Of a DNA stretch of 64,000 nucleotides, positions 5,988 to 16,280 are shown in pieces. The notes beneath the pieces are model-generated. The model was not told where the DNA came from, ran no database searches, and saw only the letters and a list, made by a program, of their open reading frames with translations. Source of the DNA: Vibrio sinaloensis (lineage in GTDB: Bacteria > Pseudomonadota > Gammaproteobacteria > Enterobacterales > Vibrionaceae); assembly GCF_000808535.1 (NCBI RefSeq), contig NZ_JWLV01000013.1:1-64000 (forward strand), read 5' to 3'. A program made the translations under genes and the position numbers. Every line of letters begins with the position of its first letter. Position 1 is the first letter of the stretch.

Positions 5988-6683
5988 ATGTCACCACGCT
6001 CACGTCGTGAGTCTAGCTCTTCGTCCGTTCGGAATGGAAAACCCGGTTTTAAACGTCCATCTAGTCACAAAACAAGCACTAAGCATTCTTCGCGCAATCG
6101 CAAAAAAACCGCCAGCAGTAAACCCAAAATCGCGCCAGAGGATCGCAAGGTGATCGCGTTTAACAAGCCATTTGATACCTTAAGCCAATTTACAGATGGA
6201 GACGGGCGCAAAACCCTAGCTGACTTTATTCCAGTGAAAGATGTTTATGCCGCGGGCAGACTGGATCGAGACAGTGAAGGATTGTTGATTCTCACCAATG
6301 ATGGCGTTCTCCAAGCGAAATTAACTCAGCCGAAATCCAAATCTCCAAAAACGTATTGGGTGCAAGTTGACGGCGCTCCGTCAGAAGCCGATTTAGACAA
6401 ACTGCGAAAAGGGGTAGAACTAAAAGATGGTATGACACTCCCCGCTCAGGTCGAGGTGATGGAAGCCCCTGAAATTTGGGAGCGTAACCCGCCAGTGCGT
6501 TTCAGAGCGAACATTCCAACCACTTGGTTAGCGATCACCATCATTGAGGGACGAAATCGACAAGTTCGTCGTATGACCGCCAATATCGGCTTCCCTACGC
6601 TGCGTTTGATTCGCTACTCGATGGGGGACATCAAGTTAGGTGATTTACAACCTGGTGAATGGAAAGAAGTACACGTCGAGTAA
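5988..6683 (+). CDS. rluE: 23S rRNA pseudouridine(2457) synthase RluE
   Basis: RsuA/RluB/E/F-family pseudouridine synthase. The catalytic aspartate lies in [17 protein letters not shown], and the C-terminal [10 protein letters not shown] motif is complete. No S4 domain precedes the catalytic domain, as in RluE; instead there is a basic Ser/Arg/Lys-rich tail of about 50 residues, probably disordered and RNA-binding. I chose ATG 5988 (231 aa) after GCAAGG; the open frame extends 34 codons upstream but without family-like sequence. Its end lies 13 bp from the convergent diguanylate cyclase gene. Assignment to RluE over RluB/F rests on the missing S4 domain and the icd neighbourhood. Confidence 0.88.
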
Positions 6684-6696
6684 GAGTTAAACACCG

Positions 6697-7731
6697 TCAA
6701 GAAAGCACTTCTCCTTGATAGTAAGTGCTTCTCTTGCCCGCTTTTTTTGCAAGATAGAGATCGTGATCCGCGTTCGACAGAGTCTTATCTAACCCTTTAT
6801 TTTTCAAGTACTGATCAATGCCAGCGCTAAAAGTCACCTCAAGTTCGTTACCCTGAAAAAGAATTGGTTTTGCAACGATGCAGCCCTGCAACTTGTGTGC
6901 AAGAGTAGAAAGCCCTTGATGCTTGACGATCTTATTAGGGAGCACCAAGACAAACTCTTCACCTCCCATACGAAAAATATTTTGCTCTCCAACCAAGCTC
7001 GATAAACGGCTAACGACTTGTTTTAGTACATCATCCCCCGCCGCATGACCGTAACTGTCATTGATAACCTTAAAATCATCAATATCCAACGTTAATAAAT
7101 AACTTCCATTGAGTTGTTCCCCTTTTTGGTCAAAGGTGGTGACAAGTGACAGACGGTTCTGTGCCCCGGTCAAAGCATCTTGATGGGCAAGAGAGTTCAG
7201 CCTATCCACGCCTTTCACCCTGCTATCTTCATAGACATGGGATATGGTCCAGACAAAAACATAGGCAAGGACAAAGTTGAGGAAAACGGCAGGTCGCATC
7301 AATTGCGAGTCAGTCATTGCGCTGTTAAGCACCAAGAGTTCGATAAGAAGACAAATCAAGCTCCAGTAGAAGCCAACACGCAACCCAAGAGCTAAGTAGA
7401 AAACGGTTGGTAACGCTATTGCCCACAAGTAAACGGAGCTCTCTATACGACTGGCATAAGTGCCGTAGCAGATCAAAGCGGTGAGGACCGCGCAATGAAA
7501 GACAAGAAACCAACTTGGCGGCTCATTCCTCCAGACATACCAAAGCATTGAAAACGATGCAATCGAGTAAACAATTTCGATCATGCCCAGCGTATTGGCT
7601 CGAGCGTCAAAATAGAAAAGATTCGCGAGCCCAAACAACAAACCAACGATTCCAAGAACGACACACATACCGATTAGTACTTTGCGCCTCAATTGATGCG
7701 TGGCATTACAGTGAACTGGGTGGTTACTCAT
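6697..7731 (-). CDS. Membrane-bound diguanylate cyclase (GGDEF)
   Basis: Makes c-di-GMP from two GTP. The N-terminal half (about residues 18-175) consists of several hydrophobic segments, apparently six, with short loops and no recognisable periplasmic sensor. The C-terminal GGDEF domain has an intact active site GGEEF at residues 256-260, LDIDDFKVINDSYGHAAGDD upstream and ADHDLYLAKKAGKRS near the end, so it should be catalytic. The inhibitory I-site RxxD expected just before the active site reads VGEQ, so product inhibition through that site is unlikely. The ATG start has a poor Shine-Dalgarno. The input signal is unknown. Confidence 0.9.
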   Translation of the reverse strand: MSNHPVHCNATHQLRRKVLIGMCVVLGIVGLLFGLANLFYFDARANTLGMIEIVYSIASFSMLWYVWRNEPPSWFLVFHCAVLTALICYGTYASRIESSVYLWAIALPTVFYLALGLRVGFYWSLICLLIELLVLNSAMTDSQLMRPAVFLNFVLAYVFVWTISHVYEDSRVKGVDRLNSLAHQDALTGAQNRLSLVTTFDQKGEQLNGSYLLTLDIDDFKVINDSYGHAAGDDVLKQVVSRLSSLVGEQNIFRMGGEEFVLVLPNKIVKHQGLSTLAHKLQGCIVAKPILFQGNELEVTFSAGIDQYLKNKGLDKTLSNADHDLYLAKKAGKRSTYYQGEVLS

Positions 7732-7803
7732 GTTTTTATCATTACTTGTATAGCGTTACGTATCTTTTAACACATCAGCAACAAAACTCCATACTTCAGA
7801 GAC

Positions 7804-7832
7804 AAAAAAACCGCTTCAATCGAAGCGGTTTG
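7804..7832 (-). terminator. Rho-independent terminator of aspS
   Basis: On the minus strand AACCGCTTC, short loop, GAAGCGGTT is followed by a T run, 25 nt past the aspS stop codon. Confidence 0.9.
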
Positions 7833-7856
7833 TCACAAAAAGTTTCAATGAGAAGC

Positions 7857-9635
7857 TTACTCTTCGTCTTTCTTCTCTGCAGCTTTTACGGCAATCGCTA
7901 GCTCTTCTAGAGCCGCTGGGTTAGCAAGGCTTGGTGCGTCTGTTAGTAGACACGCCGCCGCTGTTGTTTTAGGGAACGCGATAACATCACGGATGTTCTC
8001 TGTACCACATAGCAGCATCACTAGACGGTCTAGACCGAAAGCAAGGCCAGCGTGTGGAGGCGTACCGAATTTTAGAGCGTCCAGTAGGAAGCCGAATTTC
8101 AGTTGTTGCTCATCAGCTTCGATACCCAGAATGTCAAAGACTGCCGCTTGCATTTCTGCATCGTGGATACGAACAGAACCACCGCCCACTTCGTAGCCGT
8201 TTAGAACCATGTCGTAAGCGTTAGAGTTTGCCGCTGCAGGGTTCGCTTTTAGCTCTTCCGCAGTCACACCTAGAGGTGATGTGAATGGGTGGTGCATTGC
8301 GTGTAGGTTGCCTTCGTCGTCTTCTTCGAACATTGGGAAGTCTACAACCCATAGCGGCGCCCATGCGTTCTCGTCTGTCAACTCTAAATCTTTACCTAAC
8401 TTAAGACGAAGTGCGCCTAGAGCTTCAGCAACGATGTTCGCTTTGTCTGCACCGAATAGGATGATGTCGCCAGATTCCGCTTGAGTGCGATCCAAGATAC
8501 CGTTGATCACGTCTTCGCTTAGGAACTTAGCAACTGGAGATTGGATACCTTCCAAGCCTGCAGCGCGGTCGTTGACCTTCATCCAAGCTAGACCTTTCGC
8601 ACCGTAGATGCCTACAAACTCACCGTAACCGTCGATTTGCTTACGAGTCAAAGATGCACCACCAGGAACGCGGATTACCGCAACGCGACCTTTCTCATCG
8701 TTTGCAGGGCCTGAGAATACTTTGAACTCAACGTCTTTCACTAGGTCAGCAACGTCGACTAACTCTAGCGGGTTACGTAGATCTGGCTTGTCGCTACCGA
8801 AACGACGAATTGCTTCGCTGAACGGCATTACTGGGAATTCACCTAGGTCGACGCTCAGTAGCTCTTGCCACATATCGCGAACCATTTTCTCAGTCGTTGC
8901 ACGAACTTGGTCAGCCGTCATGAATGACGTTTCGATATCGATCTGAGTGAATTCTGGTTGACGGTCAGCACGCAAGTCTTCATCACGGAAACACTTAACG
9001 ATTTGGTAGTAACGGTCAAAACCAGACATCATTAGAAGCTGTTTGAATAGCTGTGGAGACTGAGGAAGCGCGTAAAAGCTGCCTTTGTGCACACGACTTG
9101 GTACTAGGTAGTCACGAGCGCCTTCTGGTGTCGCTTTAGTTAGTACTGGTGTTTCGATGTCTAGGAAGCCGTTGTCATCTAGGAAACGACGAACAAAGCT
9201 AGACGCTTTAGCACGTAGCTTGATGCGGTCGCTCATTTCTGGACGACGTAGATCTAGATAACGGTACTTCAGACGCTGCTCTTCTGAGTTCTTCTGGTTG
9301 AAGTCCAGAGGTAGCACATCTGAGCGGTTGATGATCTCAAGGCCTTTAGCGATGATTTCAACTTCACCGGTTGCCATGTCTTTGTTTACTTGGCTGTCTG
9401 GACGAACGCGAACTTCACCCGTTAGCTTGATACAGAATTCATTACGCAGTGTGTTAGCCACCTCATACGCGTCTGCCATATCTGGATCGACAACTACCTG
9501 AACAACGCCTTCACGATCTCGCATATCGATAAAAATAAGACCGCCTAAATCACGACGACGGTTAACCCAGCCGCAAAGTTCTACAGTTTGTCCTGCAAGG
9601 GACTTGTTCAGGTGACCACAGTAATGGGTACGCAT
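7857..9635 (-). CDS. aspS: Aspartate--tRNA ligase
   Basis: Class II aminoacyl-tRNA synthetase charging tRNA-Asp (592 aa, the usual bacterial length). The N-terminal OB-fold begins [20 protein letters not shown]. The catalytic core shows [20 protein letters not shown] (motif 2 region), [20 protein letters not shown] and the motif 3 segment [13 protein letters not shown], with the bacterial GAD-type insertion between. The C-terminus is rich in Lys and Glu. Monogenic with its own terminator, and divergent from yecE; aspS, yecE and cmoAB are also near neighbours in E. coli. Confidence 0.98.
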
Positions 9636-12671: not shown

Positions 12672-12764
12672 TGATAGCTTGAGATTCACAGCCGATGATT
12701 TGACAAAGAGTTAACCCATTTTCAGCGATTAAAGGTTACTCTGCGCAAACATCGATATTTCCTA

Positions 12765-12793
12765 AATAGGGGTGCGTTGCGCCCTTATTTTTT
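12765..12793 (+). terminator. Terminator after cmoB
   Basis: An 11-pair stem with two wobbles (AATAGGGGTGC / GCGCCCTTATT), 3-nt loop, then further T residues. It ends the cmoAB unit. Confidence 0.75.
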
Positions 12794-12912
12794 GTAATCA
12801 CTTATCAATCCTTACAGGATGAGAGCTCTGTCTCAACTGTTGGTTGTGAGGGATTCGGTTAATACGCTAAACTTCTTATTTCAAACTACTTTAATCAATG
12901 TCAGGTTTATTC

Positions 12913-13653
12913 ATGCTAACCAGATTGACTCCCGTTGTCGCATTAGTCTTGCTTTCAGGCTGCGCGCTGACAAAAGGCGAGCAGTACCACAATGAAACGC
13001 TCGCAGCCATTCAAGCTTCTGAATCTAACTTCTCGAACAAAATGGAGAGCCTCTCGCTCCAGATCAATAACCAAAACGATTACATCGAAAGCCTTGAAGC
13101 TCAGATTGATACGCTCGATCGTGAGTTGGCCACGTTTAAAGATGAAATCATGGCGGAAGTAAAAATTAAAAATAAACCCGTCGTTATTCCAGCGCCTGCT
13201 CCTGTAAAAGCGACGCCAACACATCAGATTGTCCTTGGGGAAGTAGAAAAGGTGACGATAGATGCTATCAAGCAGTCATTCGATGCACGTGTTGATACTG
13301 GTGCGGCAACATCGTCGCTCAATGCTGTGGATATTGAAGAGTTTGAGCGCAACGGAAAAAACTGGGTCCGTTTCCACTTATCTGATGGTGAAACACCGCT
13401 TACAGACGAGAACTGGATTGAGTCCCCTATTCTTCGTTATGTAAAAATACGCCAATCCACCAACGAAGAAGTCGAAAGACGCGCGGTGATTGAATTGTGG
13501 GTGAAGCTAGGAAAACTCCATGAAAAAGCGCAATTTACCTTGGCAGATCGCTCTCAAATGAGTCATCCTGTGCTTCTAGGCCGCGAGTTCATTCGCGACA
13601 TTGCAGTGGTTGATGTAAGTAAAAAATACATCCACACGGACGTCCAAAAATAA
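12913..13653 (+). CDS. Retropepsin-like lipoprotein (putative zinc/aspartic protease family)
   Basis: First gene of a three-gene operon. A lipoprotein signal (hydrophobic stretch, lipobox LLSGC, Ala at +2, so probably outer membrane) is followed by a coiled-coil region of about 60 residues rich in Glu and Gln. From about residue 105 comes a retropepsin-like domain: VDTGAATSSLNA carries the catalytic D-T-G-A motif and VLLGREFIRDIAVVDV the second conserved turn. Families of this type are often named ATP-dependent zinc protease because of fusions or neighbours with RimK-like ligases; an aspartic peptidase mechanism is the better structural guess. ATG 12913 is preferred because it places the signal peptide at the N-terminus; ATG 12898 is in frame. 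The true substrate is unknown. Confidence 0.85.
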   Translation: MLTRLTPVVALVLLSGCALTKGEQYHNETLAAIQASESNFSNKMESLSLQINNQNDYIESLEAQIDTLDRELATFKDEIMAEVKIKNKPVVIPAPAPVKATPTHQIVLGEVEKVTIDAIKQSFDARVDTGAATSSLNAVDIEEFERNGKNWVRFHLSDGETPLTDENWIESPILRYVKIRQSTNEEVERRAVIELWVKLGKLHEKAQFTLADRSQMSHPVLLGREFIRDIAVVDVSKKYIHTDVQK

Positions 13654-13664
13654 TAAGGTAGCTT

Positions 13665-15170
13665 ATGACATCCAAAGTCCCTTTTTATATATCGGTTGTG
13701 CTACTCATTTTAGCCGGTATAGCGCTCAGCATGTTCCGTCATCAAACATACGGTGTTCCTTGGACTCCAGGTGAAACCCGTCAAGTGTGGGATATTGAAG
13801 CGCGAGTTGAGTTCAATGCCCAAGCCAAGCCAGTTAAGGCATCATTGGCAGCACCTCATACCCAAAACGGCTTCACATTAATTGATGAATCCTCCTCTTC
13901 TCCAGGCTACGGCGTCTCTTACGTCAATACCGATTCTGGTCGTCGCGCAGAATGGTCTATTCGCCAAGCGACTGGCGCTCAAACCATCTACTACAAAGTG
14001 AAGTTTCTTGTTGACCCGCAAGCTAAGGTCGACGCGATTCCGCCAAGCCAAGAAATCACTCAACCCACTTTCGATGGACCAACAGAAGCCGCTGCGATTG
14101 CCTTGATTGAACGAGCCAATCAGCGTTCAGCCGACGATGTCACTTTTACTCGTGAACTGGTCAAGACTATCAACGATTCAGAAAGCCAAAATGCTTCTTT
14201 GATCCTTAACAAGATGTCGAAAGTCGAAGCGATTGATAAGATGCTGGCTTACGCCAAGGTTCCAGGAAAGGTTGTTGGTGTTATCGAGCTGGAAGATGGT
14301 CGCCGCCGTCAATCCATTCAGCACATGAACCAAGTATGGGACGGAAAGCAGTGGGTTCTGTTTAACCCAGAAAAGGCAGACCAAGTTATTGCAGAAAATA
14401 TCTTAGTTTGGGATGAGTCAAATGTGTCGCTGCTTGATCTTATGGGTGGGCAAAACAGCCAAGTTCACTTCTCGATGATTGCTCAAGAGGTTTCCCCGCA
14501 GCAAGCAACCAACGACAAAGTCTCAGCCGATGGTTTGATCAACTTCTCGATCCACAGCTTACCGCTTGAAGAGCAAGCGATGTTTAAGACCATCATGCTC
14601 ATTCCTATTGGTGCTCTTATCGTGGTCTTCTTGCGTGTCATTATTGGTCTGAAAACATCTGGCACCTTCATGCCTGTTCTGATAGCGGTTGCTTTTGTTC
14701 AGACTCAGCTGATCACGGGTATCGTCGGATTCTTGCTGATTGTGGGCACTGGCTTGGTCATTCGAAGTTATCTATCAAGGCTTAACTTACTACTCGTTGC
14801 TCGGATTTCGGCGGTGATAATCACGGTTATCATGATTATCTCTGTCTTTACTGTGGTGGCGTTTAAGATCGGCTTAACCGAAGGTCTATCGATTACGTTC
14901 TTCCCAATGATCATCTTGTCATGGACCATCGAACGTATGTCGATTCTATGGGAAGAGGAAGGCGCCAAAGAAGTGGTTCTGCAAGGTGGTGGTTCACTAC
15001 TGACTGCTGTACTGGTTTACCTAGCAATGACTAACCCGTACATCCAGCACTTAACCTTTAACTTTATTGGTCTACAGCTGATTGTACTATCCGGTATTTT
15101 ACTACTTGGTACCTACACCGGTTACCGTTTGACAGAGCTACGCCGCTTTAAGCCACTTGCGGAGGACTAA
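13665..15170 (+). CDS. Inactive transglutaminase fused to seven-helix membrane domain
   Basis: 501 aa. An N-terminal membrane anchor (about residues 7-23) is followed by a periplasmic domain of about 270 residues resembling the inactive transglutaminase domain found with this architecture. The C-terminal third (from about residue 305) has about six or seven hydrophobic helices, ending in GYRLTELRRFKPL. This is the known 'inactive transglutaminase fused to 7 TM' family; its partners are a retropepsin-like protein and a RimK-like ligase, as here. It starts 11 nt after the upstream gene with AAGG as ribosome site. A role as a membrane scaffold that binds a peptide-like substrate is inference. 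Confidence 0.87.
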   Translation: MTSKVPFYISVVLLILAGIALSMFRHQTYGVPWTPGETRQVWDIEARVEFNAQAKPVKASLAAPHTQNGFTLIDESSSSPGYGVSYVNTDSGRRAEWSIRQATGAQTIYYKVKFLVDPQAKVDAIPPSQEITQPTFDGPTEAAAIALIERANQRSADDVTFTRELVKTINDSESQNASLILNKMSKVEAIDKMLAYAKVPGKVVGVIELEDGRRRQSIQHMNQVWDGKQWVLFNPEKADQVIAENILVWDESNVSLLDLMGGQNSQVHFSMIAQEVSPQQATNDKVSADGLINFSIHSLPLEEQAMFKTIMLIPIGALIVVFLRVIIGLKTSGTFMPVLIAVAFVQTQLITGIVGFLLIVGTGLVIRSYLSRLNLLLVARISAVIITVIMIISVFTVVAFKIGLTEGLSITFFPMIILSWTIERMSILWEEEGAKEVVLQGGGSLLTAVLVYLAMTNPYIQHLTFNFIGLQLIVLSGILLLGTYTGYRLTELRRFKPLAED

Positions 15171-15173
15171 ACG

Positions 15174-16163
15174 ATGTTCTCACGTTTTACTTCGCAATTT
15201 ACGTCGCCGGGCAAACTCCGCCATAAGGGAATCATGGGCATGAACCAACGTAACCACAGTTACATTGGTCGTTACAATGATCGTGCAAAATACCCTTTGG
15301 TGGACGACAAACTAAAAACCAAAATCATCGCCCAACAACATGGTGCGACCACACCCGAGCTTATCGGCGTGATCAGTAATCAGGCCGAAGTCAAAACCAT
15401 TCACAATATGGTGAAAGACTGGCCAGGCTTTGTGATTAAGCCAGCCCAAGGAAGTGGTGGTAAAGGCATTTTAGTTATCACATCGCACAAAGATGGTATC
15501 TATACCAAACCTTCTGGCTCGACCATTAACCAAGAAGATGTAGAACGCCATATCAGTAACGCGCTCGCTGGTCTTTTCTCGTTAGGGGGTAAGAACGATG
15601 TGGCGGTTGTCGAGAACCTGATTAAGTTCGATGACTGCTTCGACGGTTTCAGCTACGAAGGCGTACCTGATGTTCGGATCATCGTTTTCAAAGGCTACCC
15701 TGTCATGGCGATGATGCGCTGCTCGACGGCGGCATCTGATGGGAAAGCCAACTTGCACCAAGGCGCTGTCGGTGTGGGCATTGATATCGCGACAGGACGT
15801 GCTGTGCGAGCCGTTCAGTTTGATCAACCCATCACCCATCACCCTGACACAGGAAAAGAGCTCGCCACACTGCAAGTCCCCCACTGGGAGCGCCTATTGG
15901 TTCTCGCTTCCAGCGCTTGGGAGATGACCGGGCTTGGATACATGGGCACCGATATGGTTTTGGATAAAGAGGAAGGTCCCATGGTACTTGAGCTCAACGC
16001 AAGACCGGGGCTAGCAATTCAAATTGCCAACGGCGCAGGATTATTGCCAAGACTGCATCATATCGAAAGTTTAGGATTAGGCGCAGACTACCCTAAACCC
16101 GAAGAGCGAGTCGCTTATGCTGCCAAACAATTCGGTATTTTTGCCAAAGAGCTGACCACATAA
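15174..16163 (+). CDS. RimK-like alpha-L-glutamate ligase homologue (ATP-grasp)
   Basis: 329-aa ATP-grasp enzyme. ATP-binding elements are visible in WPGFVIKPAQGSGGKGILVI, and the Mg-binding end of the fold in MVLELNARPGLAIQIANGAG. Relatives ligate amino acids, typically glutamate, to a carboxylate using ATP through an acyl-phosphate. There is no signal peptide, so it should act in the cytoplasm, while its two operon partners face the periplasm. It starts 3 nt after the upstream stop with a strong GGAGG site, which argues for coordinated expression. Two terminators follow. The substrate and product are not known to me. Confidence 0.88.
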   Translation: MFSRFTSQFTSPGKLRHKGIMGMNQRNHSYIGRYNDRAKYPLVDDKLKTKIIAQQHGATTPELIGVISNQAEVKTIHNMVKDWPGFVIKPAQGSGGKGILVITSHKDGIYTKPSGSTINQEDVERHISNALAGLFSLGGKNDVAVVENLIKFDDCFDGFSYEGVPDVRIIVFKGYPVMAMMRCSTAASDGKANLHQGAVGVGIDIATGRAVRAVQFDQPITHHPDTGKELATLQVPHWERLLVLASSAWEMTGLGYMGTDMVLDKEEGPMVLELNARPGLAIQIANGAGLLPRLHHIESLGLGADYPKPEERVAYAAKQFGIFAKELTT

Positions 16164-16242: not shown

Positions 16243-16280
16243 TAAAAAAATCCCGCAGCTTATCACTGCGGGATTTTTTA
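16243..16280. terminator. Bidirectional terminator, ATP-grasp gene/mukB
   Basis: A-rich run, ATCCCGCAG, loop, CTGCGGGAT, T run. It is symmetrical and sits between convergent genes, 22 nt after the mukB stop. Confidence 0.9.

Follow-up and report, generated by a model that had tools for sequence, protein, structure and literature searches.

The Vibrio rloABC operon: a lipid-tethered member of a described retropepsin-ligase system, with a polyamide chain as its candidate product

The protein families considered here, namely, a secreted retropepsin-like protease, a membrane protein with a transglutaminase-like domain and an ATP-grasp ligase, were probably first described by Iyer et al. in 2009. 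In Pseudomonas aeruginosa, the three proteins were named RloA, RloB and RloC (mBio 2025; PMC12239564), and here we describe their counterparts encoded in a stretch of 64,000 nucleotides of Vibrio sinaloensis DNA (contig NZ_JWLV01000013.1, positions 1 to 64,000 of the forward strand; hereinafter, the window). The RloA of P. aeruginosa, a secreted retropepsin, cuts stretches of 8 or 10 glutamates in vitro and not those of 6 or fewer, and it cleaves poly-glutamate both attached to RpsF and within reporters; the R114A and R137A variants showed the strongest loss of this cleavage and did not complement, and no genome-encoded substrate of RloA was found (PMC12239564). P. aeruginosa deprived of its three RloA proteases fails to grow on salt-free medium, forms poor biofilm, is more sensitive to beta-lactams and is misshapen, and deletion of rloB or rloC rescues the salt phenotype fully and the other phenotypes partly (PMC12239564). 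The same report presents solved structures of the RloA family, in which the disulphide cysteines are called conserved in periplasmic orthologues, lists the Vibrio cholerae orthologues among the loci most upregulated under VxrB, and already proposes, from RloA and RloC, that rlo originated from an exported RimK-type set (PMC12239564). Elsewhere, Shewanella vesiculosa was found to have a higher vesicle output when an inactive-transglutaminase 7TM gene is disrupted (PMC12096838), suppressor insertions in the P. aeruginosa operon came from an exopolysaccharide screen (PMC7314104), and parallel mutations in the operon arose under antibiotic selection, its genes being predicted to function in post-translational modification of cell wall proteins (PMC10127599).

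A first-pass annotation of the window singled out this locus as the strongest undescribed system in it, a description that has to be given up because RloABC was named and tested in P. aeruginosa in 2025 (PMC12239564). The accompanying statement that substrate, product and purpose are not established likewise fails for the purpose, which was addressed in that work, and holds for the product and the in vivo substrate. The system is thus an already described one, and the window copy is a new member of it with a lineage-specific tethering of the protease. In P. aeruginosa, sensitivity to beta-lactams, biofilm and cell shape all depend on the operon, and the comparative layout described below turns the question of its substrate into a testable claim, namely, a glutamate-like chain that RloC makes, RloB moves and RloA cuts.

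It is nearly certain that the window carries the Vibrio rloABC operon. The three genes, rloA (12913-13653), rloB (13665-15170) and rloC (15174-16163), all lie on the plus strand with intergenic gaps of 11 and 3 nucleotides, in agreement to the base with the initial reading of the sequence. As in the RloABC of P. aeruginosa and P. fluorescens (PMC12239564), the gene order, the domains, the dead transglutaminase and the DTGA retropepsin with an export signal are all present, and the genome likewise encodes RimK/RimB-like proteins elsewhere and an extra RloA. The annotation had also pointed out that these families co-occur, and this is borne out in the Vibrionales: among the best 80 of 286 RloB relatives (79 from Vibrio and one from a 'Vibrionales bacterium'), RloC follows RloB in every locus and the whole A-B-C order was recovered by script in 79, the 80th (L065) having an intact rloA by eye. 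Because it is kept throughout these 80 loci, the co-occurrence is not due to chance.

The product of rloA is a retropepsin-like aspartic protease (PF05618, 3.7e-49; phmmer matches to the structures 9g58, 1.1e-17, 9g59, 3e-16, and 2pma, 8.9e-10) and, as first annotated, a lipoprotein with a DTGA motif. The open reading frame, which ends at 13653, has alternative starts at 12898 and 12913, the latter being favoured because it places the lipobox cysteine at residue 17, the position that it also has in RloA of the Vibrio loci L009, L060 and L075. A lipoprotein signal peptide with the lipobox LSGC and the lipid-bearing Cys17 (12913..12963) is followed by a spacer of about 90 residues (12964..13230), the first half of which looks heptad-like by eye, and by the protease domain, with the catalytic DTGA motif at 13294..13305 (aspartate codon, 13294-13296), which is apparent both from the sequence itself and from the alignment to 9g58. 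The lipid cysteine and the catalytic aspartate are 111 residues apart, whereas in the P. aeruginosa protein the catalytic aspartate is residue 48 (PMC12239564). This arrangement is shared across the lineage: the lipobox is present in all 65 deduplicated RloA sequences of the Vibrio set, the window included, compared to 16 of the 72 other RloA under the same rough expression, and the distance from cysteine to aspartate is 109-116 residues in 64 of the 65, the remaining one lacking a 'DTG' string. As a string, DTGA occurs in 61/65 and 50/72 sequences, respectively. The residue after Cys17 is alanine, and under the Lol rule alanine in this position directs a lipoprotein to the outer membrane. Judging by these sequence features, the window RloA is probably suspended from the outer membrane by a long arm. 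Most of the Vibrio set lacks the disulphide seen in the published RloA structures, as no cysteine follows the D[TS]G motif in 62/65 sequences, compared to 18/72 of the others (sequences without that string count as having none). The four residues that contact poly-glutamate in P. aeruginosa RloA (K46, R92, R114 and R137) all align with arginine in the window protein, Lys46 being replaced by Arg126, under the assumption that the numbering of the paper is offset by 20 from that of 9g58.

NCBIfam holds models of RloA and RloB, and the window proteins score below the respective cut-offs (RloA3, 112 vs 210 bits; RloA2, 92 vs 250; RloA, 84 vs 280; RloB, 363 vs 900); we infer that these models are tuned to Pseudomonas. 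The window RloA also fails the RimB model NF052261 (73 vs 200 bits) and carries the lipoprotein signal. The same genome encodes three further PF05618 proteins, namely, two RimB-like ones (L146 and L147) near RimK-like genes and a second lipoprotein RloA (L145:9691-10359, G000:C1; PF05618, 4.8e-47) located away from any rloB, which is perhaps redundant with the window copy.

RloB (13665..15170) consists of an N-terminal transmembrane helix, an inactive transglutaminase-like domain and a C-terminal transmembrane bundle (PF14400, 1.2e-57; PF14402, 2.2e-109). In the AlphaFold2 model (mean predicted local distance difference test score, pLDDT, 82; predicted template modelling score, pTM, 0.61), the helix spans residues 5-29 and the helical bundle residues 278-500, and the best Foldseek match is the cysteine protease 3isr (1.2e-08). 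Over the best segment, the protein is 93% identical to an RloB of V. sinaloensis and 95% identical to that of V. atypicus. In the columns that harbor the Cys-His-Asp triad of transglutaminases, it reads Lys-Gln-Asn, so the early assignment of an inactive transglutaminase domain stands.

RloC (15174..16163) is a cytoplasmic ATP-grasp amide ligase related to RimK (PF14397, 5e-101; TIGR02291, which we chose as the RloC model, 562 bits vs a cut-off of 314). Five residues, Lys89, Arg168, Asp260, Glu273 and Asn275, which we take to be catalytic, do not vary in an alignment of 24 RloC drawn from types I, II and IV (see below). The possibility that the gene encodes an ordinary RimK acting on ribosomal protein S6 was rejected, in line with the initial call of a RimK-like ligase: the protein scores 47.4 vs 143.4 bits with TIGR00768 and 17 vs 331 with PRK10446, and the genome has separate RimK-like loci, L146 and L147, on other contigs than rlo (the RimK-like genes in these two were called by eye and from weak matches of the RloC model rather than by a family search).

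To place the operon in a wider context, we compared 98 unique RloB, that is, the window protein and the unique sequences from loci L086 and up. These derive from overlapping draws of 276, 397 and 369 genomes; of the 71 phylum positives, the neighbourhoods of 20 were retrieved directly and those of a few others via the other draws, and the 369-genome draw was retrieved in part. We left out a match below the cut-off (L144) and one of the fragments into which RloB is split in L201, and the loci that reach contig ends include L138, L140, L143, L151 and L192. Among the 276 genomes of the class, PF14402 was found in 59 (58 over the cut-off), TIGR02291 over the cut-off in 46 and PF05618 in 128; among the 397 genomes of the phylum, PF14402 was found in 71. 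The catalytic cysteine of the transglutaminase triad is absent from 87 of the 98 RloB, and in 85 of these 87 the triad columns are filled, with gaps only in L153 and L154. The loci fall into four types. In the 77 loci of type I, RloA is adjacent to RloB in 73 and RloC in 75. The two type IV loci (L153 and L154), both from outside the class, have an adjacent RloC (2/2) and a membrane bundle without the transglutaminase domain. In the eight loci of type III, a match to the RloA model lies within 8 kilobases (kb) in 7/8, that of L203 being RimB-like only; some of the RloA matches near types III and IV are RimB-like proteins (L153, L202 and L203). In 3/8 type III loci, a RimK-like gene, identified by Pfam as RimK in L142, is located no more than 1.2 kb from RloB.

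The 11 loci of type II (L130-L135, L150-L152, L200 and L201) comprise a sister operon with the order RloB, RloC, membrane-anchored TPR protein and barrel. RloC and the TPR protein are present in all 11 and the barrel in nine, L151 lying at a contig end and L135 having none in reach; no RloA was found within 8 kb in any of the 11 (0/11), where the contig reaches that far. The Cys-His-Asp triad is intact in 11/11 type II RloB, and the cysteine is present in 0/87 of the others. This type was first set apart by layout, at which stage the triad was found in 9/9 and the cysteine in 0/72 others; L200 and L201 were added via a type II RloB model, and thereafter the type was defined by the cysteine. 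PF01841 matches the type II RloB of L134 (7.7e-17) and L135 (4.7e-17), but also two scanned type III RloB without the cysteine. In L135, RloB and RloC are fused in one 838-residue frame without a stop (6475-8991), followed by the TPR protein. Type II was detected in 8 of 369 genomes (G061, G086, G163, G176, G265, G268, G653 and G696), with three more from outside the class. Six genomes of the 276-genome class draw carry type II, and three of them (G061, G176 and G268) lack a PF05618 match. The TPR protein has about 640 residues (809 in L135) and the barrel about 400. A hidden Markov model of the barrel matched type II loci only, with nine matches, seven of them the sequences from which it was built, L200 and L201 being the independent ones; the TPR model was built from five type II loci. 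The two barrels scanned match no Pfam family, and the predicted structure from seven sequences (pLDDT 79, pTM 0.75) has 16 strands and retrieves porins and FadL first in Foldseek, with the polysaccharide secretin 4y25 at rank 36 and the alginate exporter AlgE (8rqp) at rank 43, all at template modelling scores of about 0.4, so that, on the strength of the model, the matches indicate a barrel and nothing further. No description of the TPR/barrel layout was found among the titles and abstract openings listed by our literature searches, which covered open-licence PMC text.

AstE/AspA-like genes provide a further link between rlo and the RimK-type sets. Such a gene follows rloC on the same strand in nine of the 73 type I loci in which the sequence runs on for 1.5 kb or more past rloC (L120, L124, L127, L210, L231, L233, L236, L237 and L239; PF24827 was verified in L236, L120 and L233) and possibly encodes a fourth rlo component. 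By eye, an N-terminal signal is clear in L231, L233, L236 and L239 and less so in L120 and L210. In the window's genome, no PF24827 gene was found near rlo, the matches being two at the RimK-like loci, both of which thus carry such a gene, and one weaker. Because AstE-like genes accompany both rlo and RimK-like loci, the rlo set looks like an exported RimK set to which RloB has been added.

The first-pass annotation suggested a system that ligates amino acids inside the cell and trims or senses a peptide in the envelope; ligation inside and trimming in the envelope fit the published data and the comparative layout. We put at about even the chances that RloC, together with the membrane bundle of RloB, synthesizes a glutamate-like polyamide and moves it across the inner membrane, that RloA trims this chain, and that its accumulation in the absence of RloA harms growth at low salt. 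Under this scenario, RloC would use ATP in the cytoplasm to string together acidic amino acids, of which glutamate is the most likely, the RloB bundle would carry the chain to the periplasmic face, where the dead transglutaminase domain may bind it or pass it on, and RloA, lipid-tethered and reaching out on its long spacer, would shorten it. In the absence of RloA, the polyanion would pile up in the periplasm along with its counter-ions, leading to failure in low-salt medium, and without RloB or RloC nothing would accumulate, which fits the published rescue; the sister type II system would export the chain. The chain as the product, its translocation by RloB and the osmotic cause of the growth failure are all what we infer, with poly-glutamate as the best candidate product on the simplest reading. 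That RloB and RloC make and translocate something that is harmful if untrimmed is suggested by the published rescue genetics and by the conserved pairing of RloC with the membrane bundle in types I, II and IV, while the handlers on the outside vary by lineage (RloA; RloA and an AstE-like enzyme; or an active-looking transglutaminase with a TPR protein and a barrel). Conceivably, RloC and the RloB bundle are a general Gram-negative polyamide synthase-translocase with two editions, one, represented by the window, in which the chain is retained in the periplasm and trimmed by RloA, in some lineages along with an exported AstE-like enzyme, as a tunable polyanion akin to osmoregulated glucans, and another for surface export, with an active transglutaminase, a TPR scaffold and an outer-membrane barrel; this generalization is tentative, and we would sooner bet against it than for it.

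Several observations weigh against the polyamide scenario. No rlo product was described in the literature consulted, and nothing in the present analysis shows use of glutamate by RloC; among the 50 Foldseek matches listed for the RloB model, none to the membrane bundle is convincing. The window RloA has a single cysteine, the lipid one, so it lacks the disulphide pair of the periplasmic orthologues. Type III loci have no adjacent RloC (0/8), and L205 (genome G244, 99% complete) has a type I rloBC, the transglutaminase of which is dead, in an assembly that gives no PF05618 match at E 0.001, so RloBC need not be harmful without RloA. The nine AstE-like loci fall in two clades of the tree, a quick maximum-likelihood one from which the triad columns were left out and in which long branches, L135 among them, were flagged. 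In this tree, the 11 type II RloB form one side of a single branch (99% support in the Shimodaira-Hasegawa-like approximate likelihood ratio test), so that one event, and not eleven, connects the intact triad, the lack of RloA and the export genes. Moreover, two genomes combine types, G265 having type II along with type III and G653 (86% complete, 6% contaminated) type II along with type I, so type II cannot be regarded as a plain replacement. A role of RloA as the catalytic replacement for the dead transglutaminase, attractive as it is, is accordingly not claimed: it rests on one tree branch, and two genomes carry two types.

Three other explanations deserve consideration. RloC and RloB could put glutamate chains on a specific periplasmic or membrane protein or a wall component, from which RloA removes them, as an envelope counterpart of the RimK/RimB modification of S6. 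RimK and RimB do so in the cytosol, RloA cleaves poly-glutamate on RpsF and in reporters (PMC12239564), and the prediction for the operon genes concerns cell wall proteins (PMC10127599); yet no obvious substrate gene travels along with rlo, since at the 87 loci other than type II the AstE-like family is the commonest neighbour and the other recurrent families appear unrelated by eye (11 families, those found in at least four loci, were tallied), and the type II layout is easier to reconcile with a chain that is exported. We regard this explanation as unlikely. Another one, which we consider improbable, retains the chain but changes its unit: RloC would link some other acidic or modified unit, with poly-glutamate cleavage a side activity left over from a RimB-like ancestor. 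The length threshold of the reporters and the failure to find a genome-encoded substrate (PMC12239564) would fit, as would the naming of PF14397, the RloC family, for an association with sugar transfer and the only distant similarity of RloC to RimK, but the variants that lose poly-glutamate cleavage most, R114A and R137A, also fail to complement (PMC12239564), and both systems have AstE/AspA-like enzymes (PF24827) beside them in some genomes.

Finally, RloB might be a sensor, the dead transglutaminase domain of which binds an envelope peptide and switches RloC, with RloA tuning the ligand. The loss of the catalytic cysteine from most RloB in spite of the filled triad columns would agree with a binding role, and so would the suppressor insertions from the exopolysaccharide screen (PMC7314104); however, the type IV RloB keep RloC without any transglutaminase domain, and the RloB-RloC fusion and the type II TPR and barrel genes fit a machine better than a receptor, so we find a sensor quite improbable.

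Among better known systems, RimK-RimB, which polyglutamylates S6 in the cytosol, resembles rlo in combining an ATP-grasp ligase with a retropepsin and in having AstE/AspA-like genes beside it in some genomes, and differs in that its ligase belongs to another ATP-grasp family, whereas rlo has an export signal on the protease and the membrane partner RloB. The proposed action of rlo is similar to that of the Gram-positive poly-gamma-glutamate synthase PgsBCA, with a cytosolic ligase, a membrane partner and a processing peptidase; to our knowledge, the families are unrelated, no homology search having been made. The TPR-plus-barrel modules of exopolysaccharide export, AlgK/AlgE and PgaA, resemble the type II loci only and not the window. 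If the polyamide scenario is true, poly-gamma-glutamate has a counterpart in a secreted polyamide system that is widespread in Gram-negative bacteria and has a sister branch apparently made for export, in which the transglutaminase still looks active.

Some additional features of the compared loci can be mentioned. Of the eight type III loci, five have CorA or MgtE-like genes within 6 kb of RloB and three have MscS-like genes within 3 kb (L137, L139, L142, L202 and L203 are the loci concerned); the same search within 6 kb of type I RloB gave CorA in 1/77 (L210) and MscS-like genes in 3/77 (L158 and the near-identical L159 and L160), with queries that were drawn from the type III and RimK loci and so favour matches there. 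In the window's genome, L147 (7376-10633, G000:C11) has RimK-like, AstE-like, RimB-like and, by eye, MscS-like channel genes in a row, possibly an osmotic link of the cytosolic system. Two type III RloB (L136 and L139) have a cysteine 11 columns off the catalytic column. In type IV, the preceding secreted protein is barrel-like by eye and has no Pfam match, and in L153 RimB-like and RimK-like genes lie just upstream. TPR lipoproteins precede rloB at least in L131, L134 and L200 of type II, and a small membrane protein with a weak PepSY_TM match below the cut-off is encoded upstream of type II rloB in L150 (8016-8573) and L152 (2175-2735), with a similar open reading frame in L151 (4427-4990).

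Around the window operon, two methyltransferase genes identified by domain search, presumably cmoA and cmoB, lie upstream of rloA, and a long gene that we take to be mukB is convergent with rloC downstream. Among the Vibrionales loci, 77 of the 79 with a scripted rloA have the presumed cmoB no more than 1.2 kb upstream, and 34/80 have the convergent presumed mukB within 1.2 kb. In the wider set, the cmoA/cmoB families are found near RloB in only 4/87 loci, the window included, so a functional link to the flanking genes is unsupported. No VxrB motif turned up in the literature passages with which to look for a VxrB site upstream of rloA, and an alignment of 79 upstream sequences showed scattered conserved columns only. 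A Sigma-70 scan gave one site, on the minus strand inside rloC. A consensus scan marks a terminator-like hairpin of 12 pairs (12764..12790, plus strand) between the presumed cmoB and rloA, which is not evidence of function, and another hairpin of 15 pairs (16245..16279), a consensus match only, lies between rloC and the convergent gene and is listed on the minus strand, with a T run on the plus strand as well.

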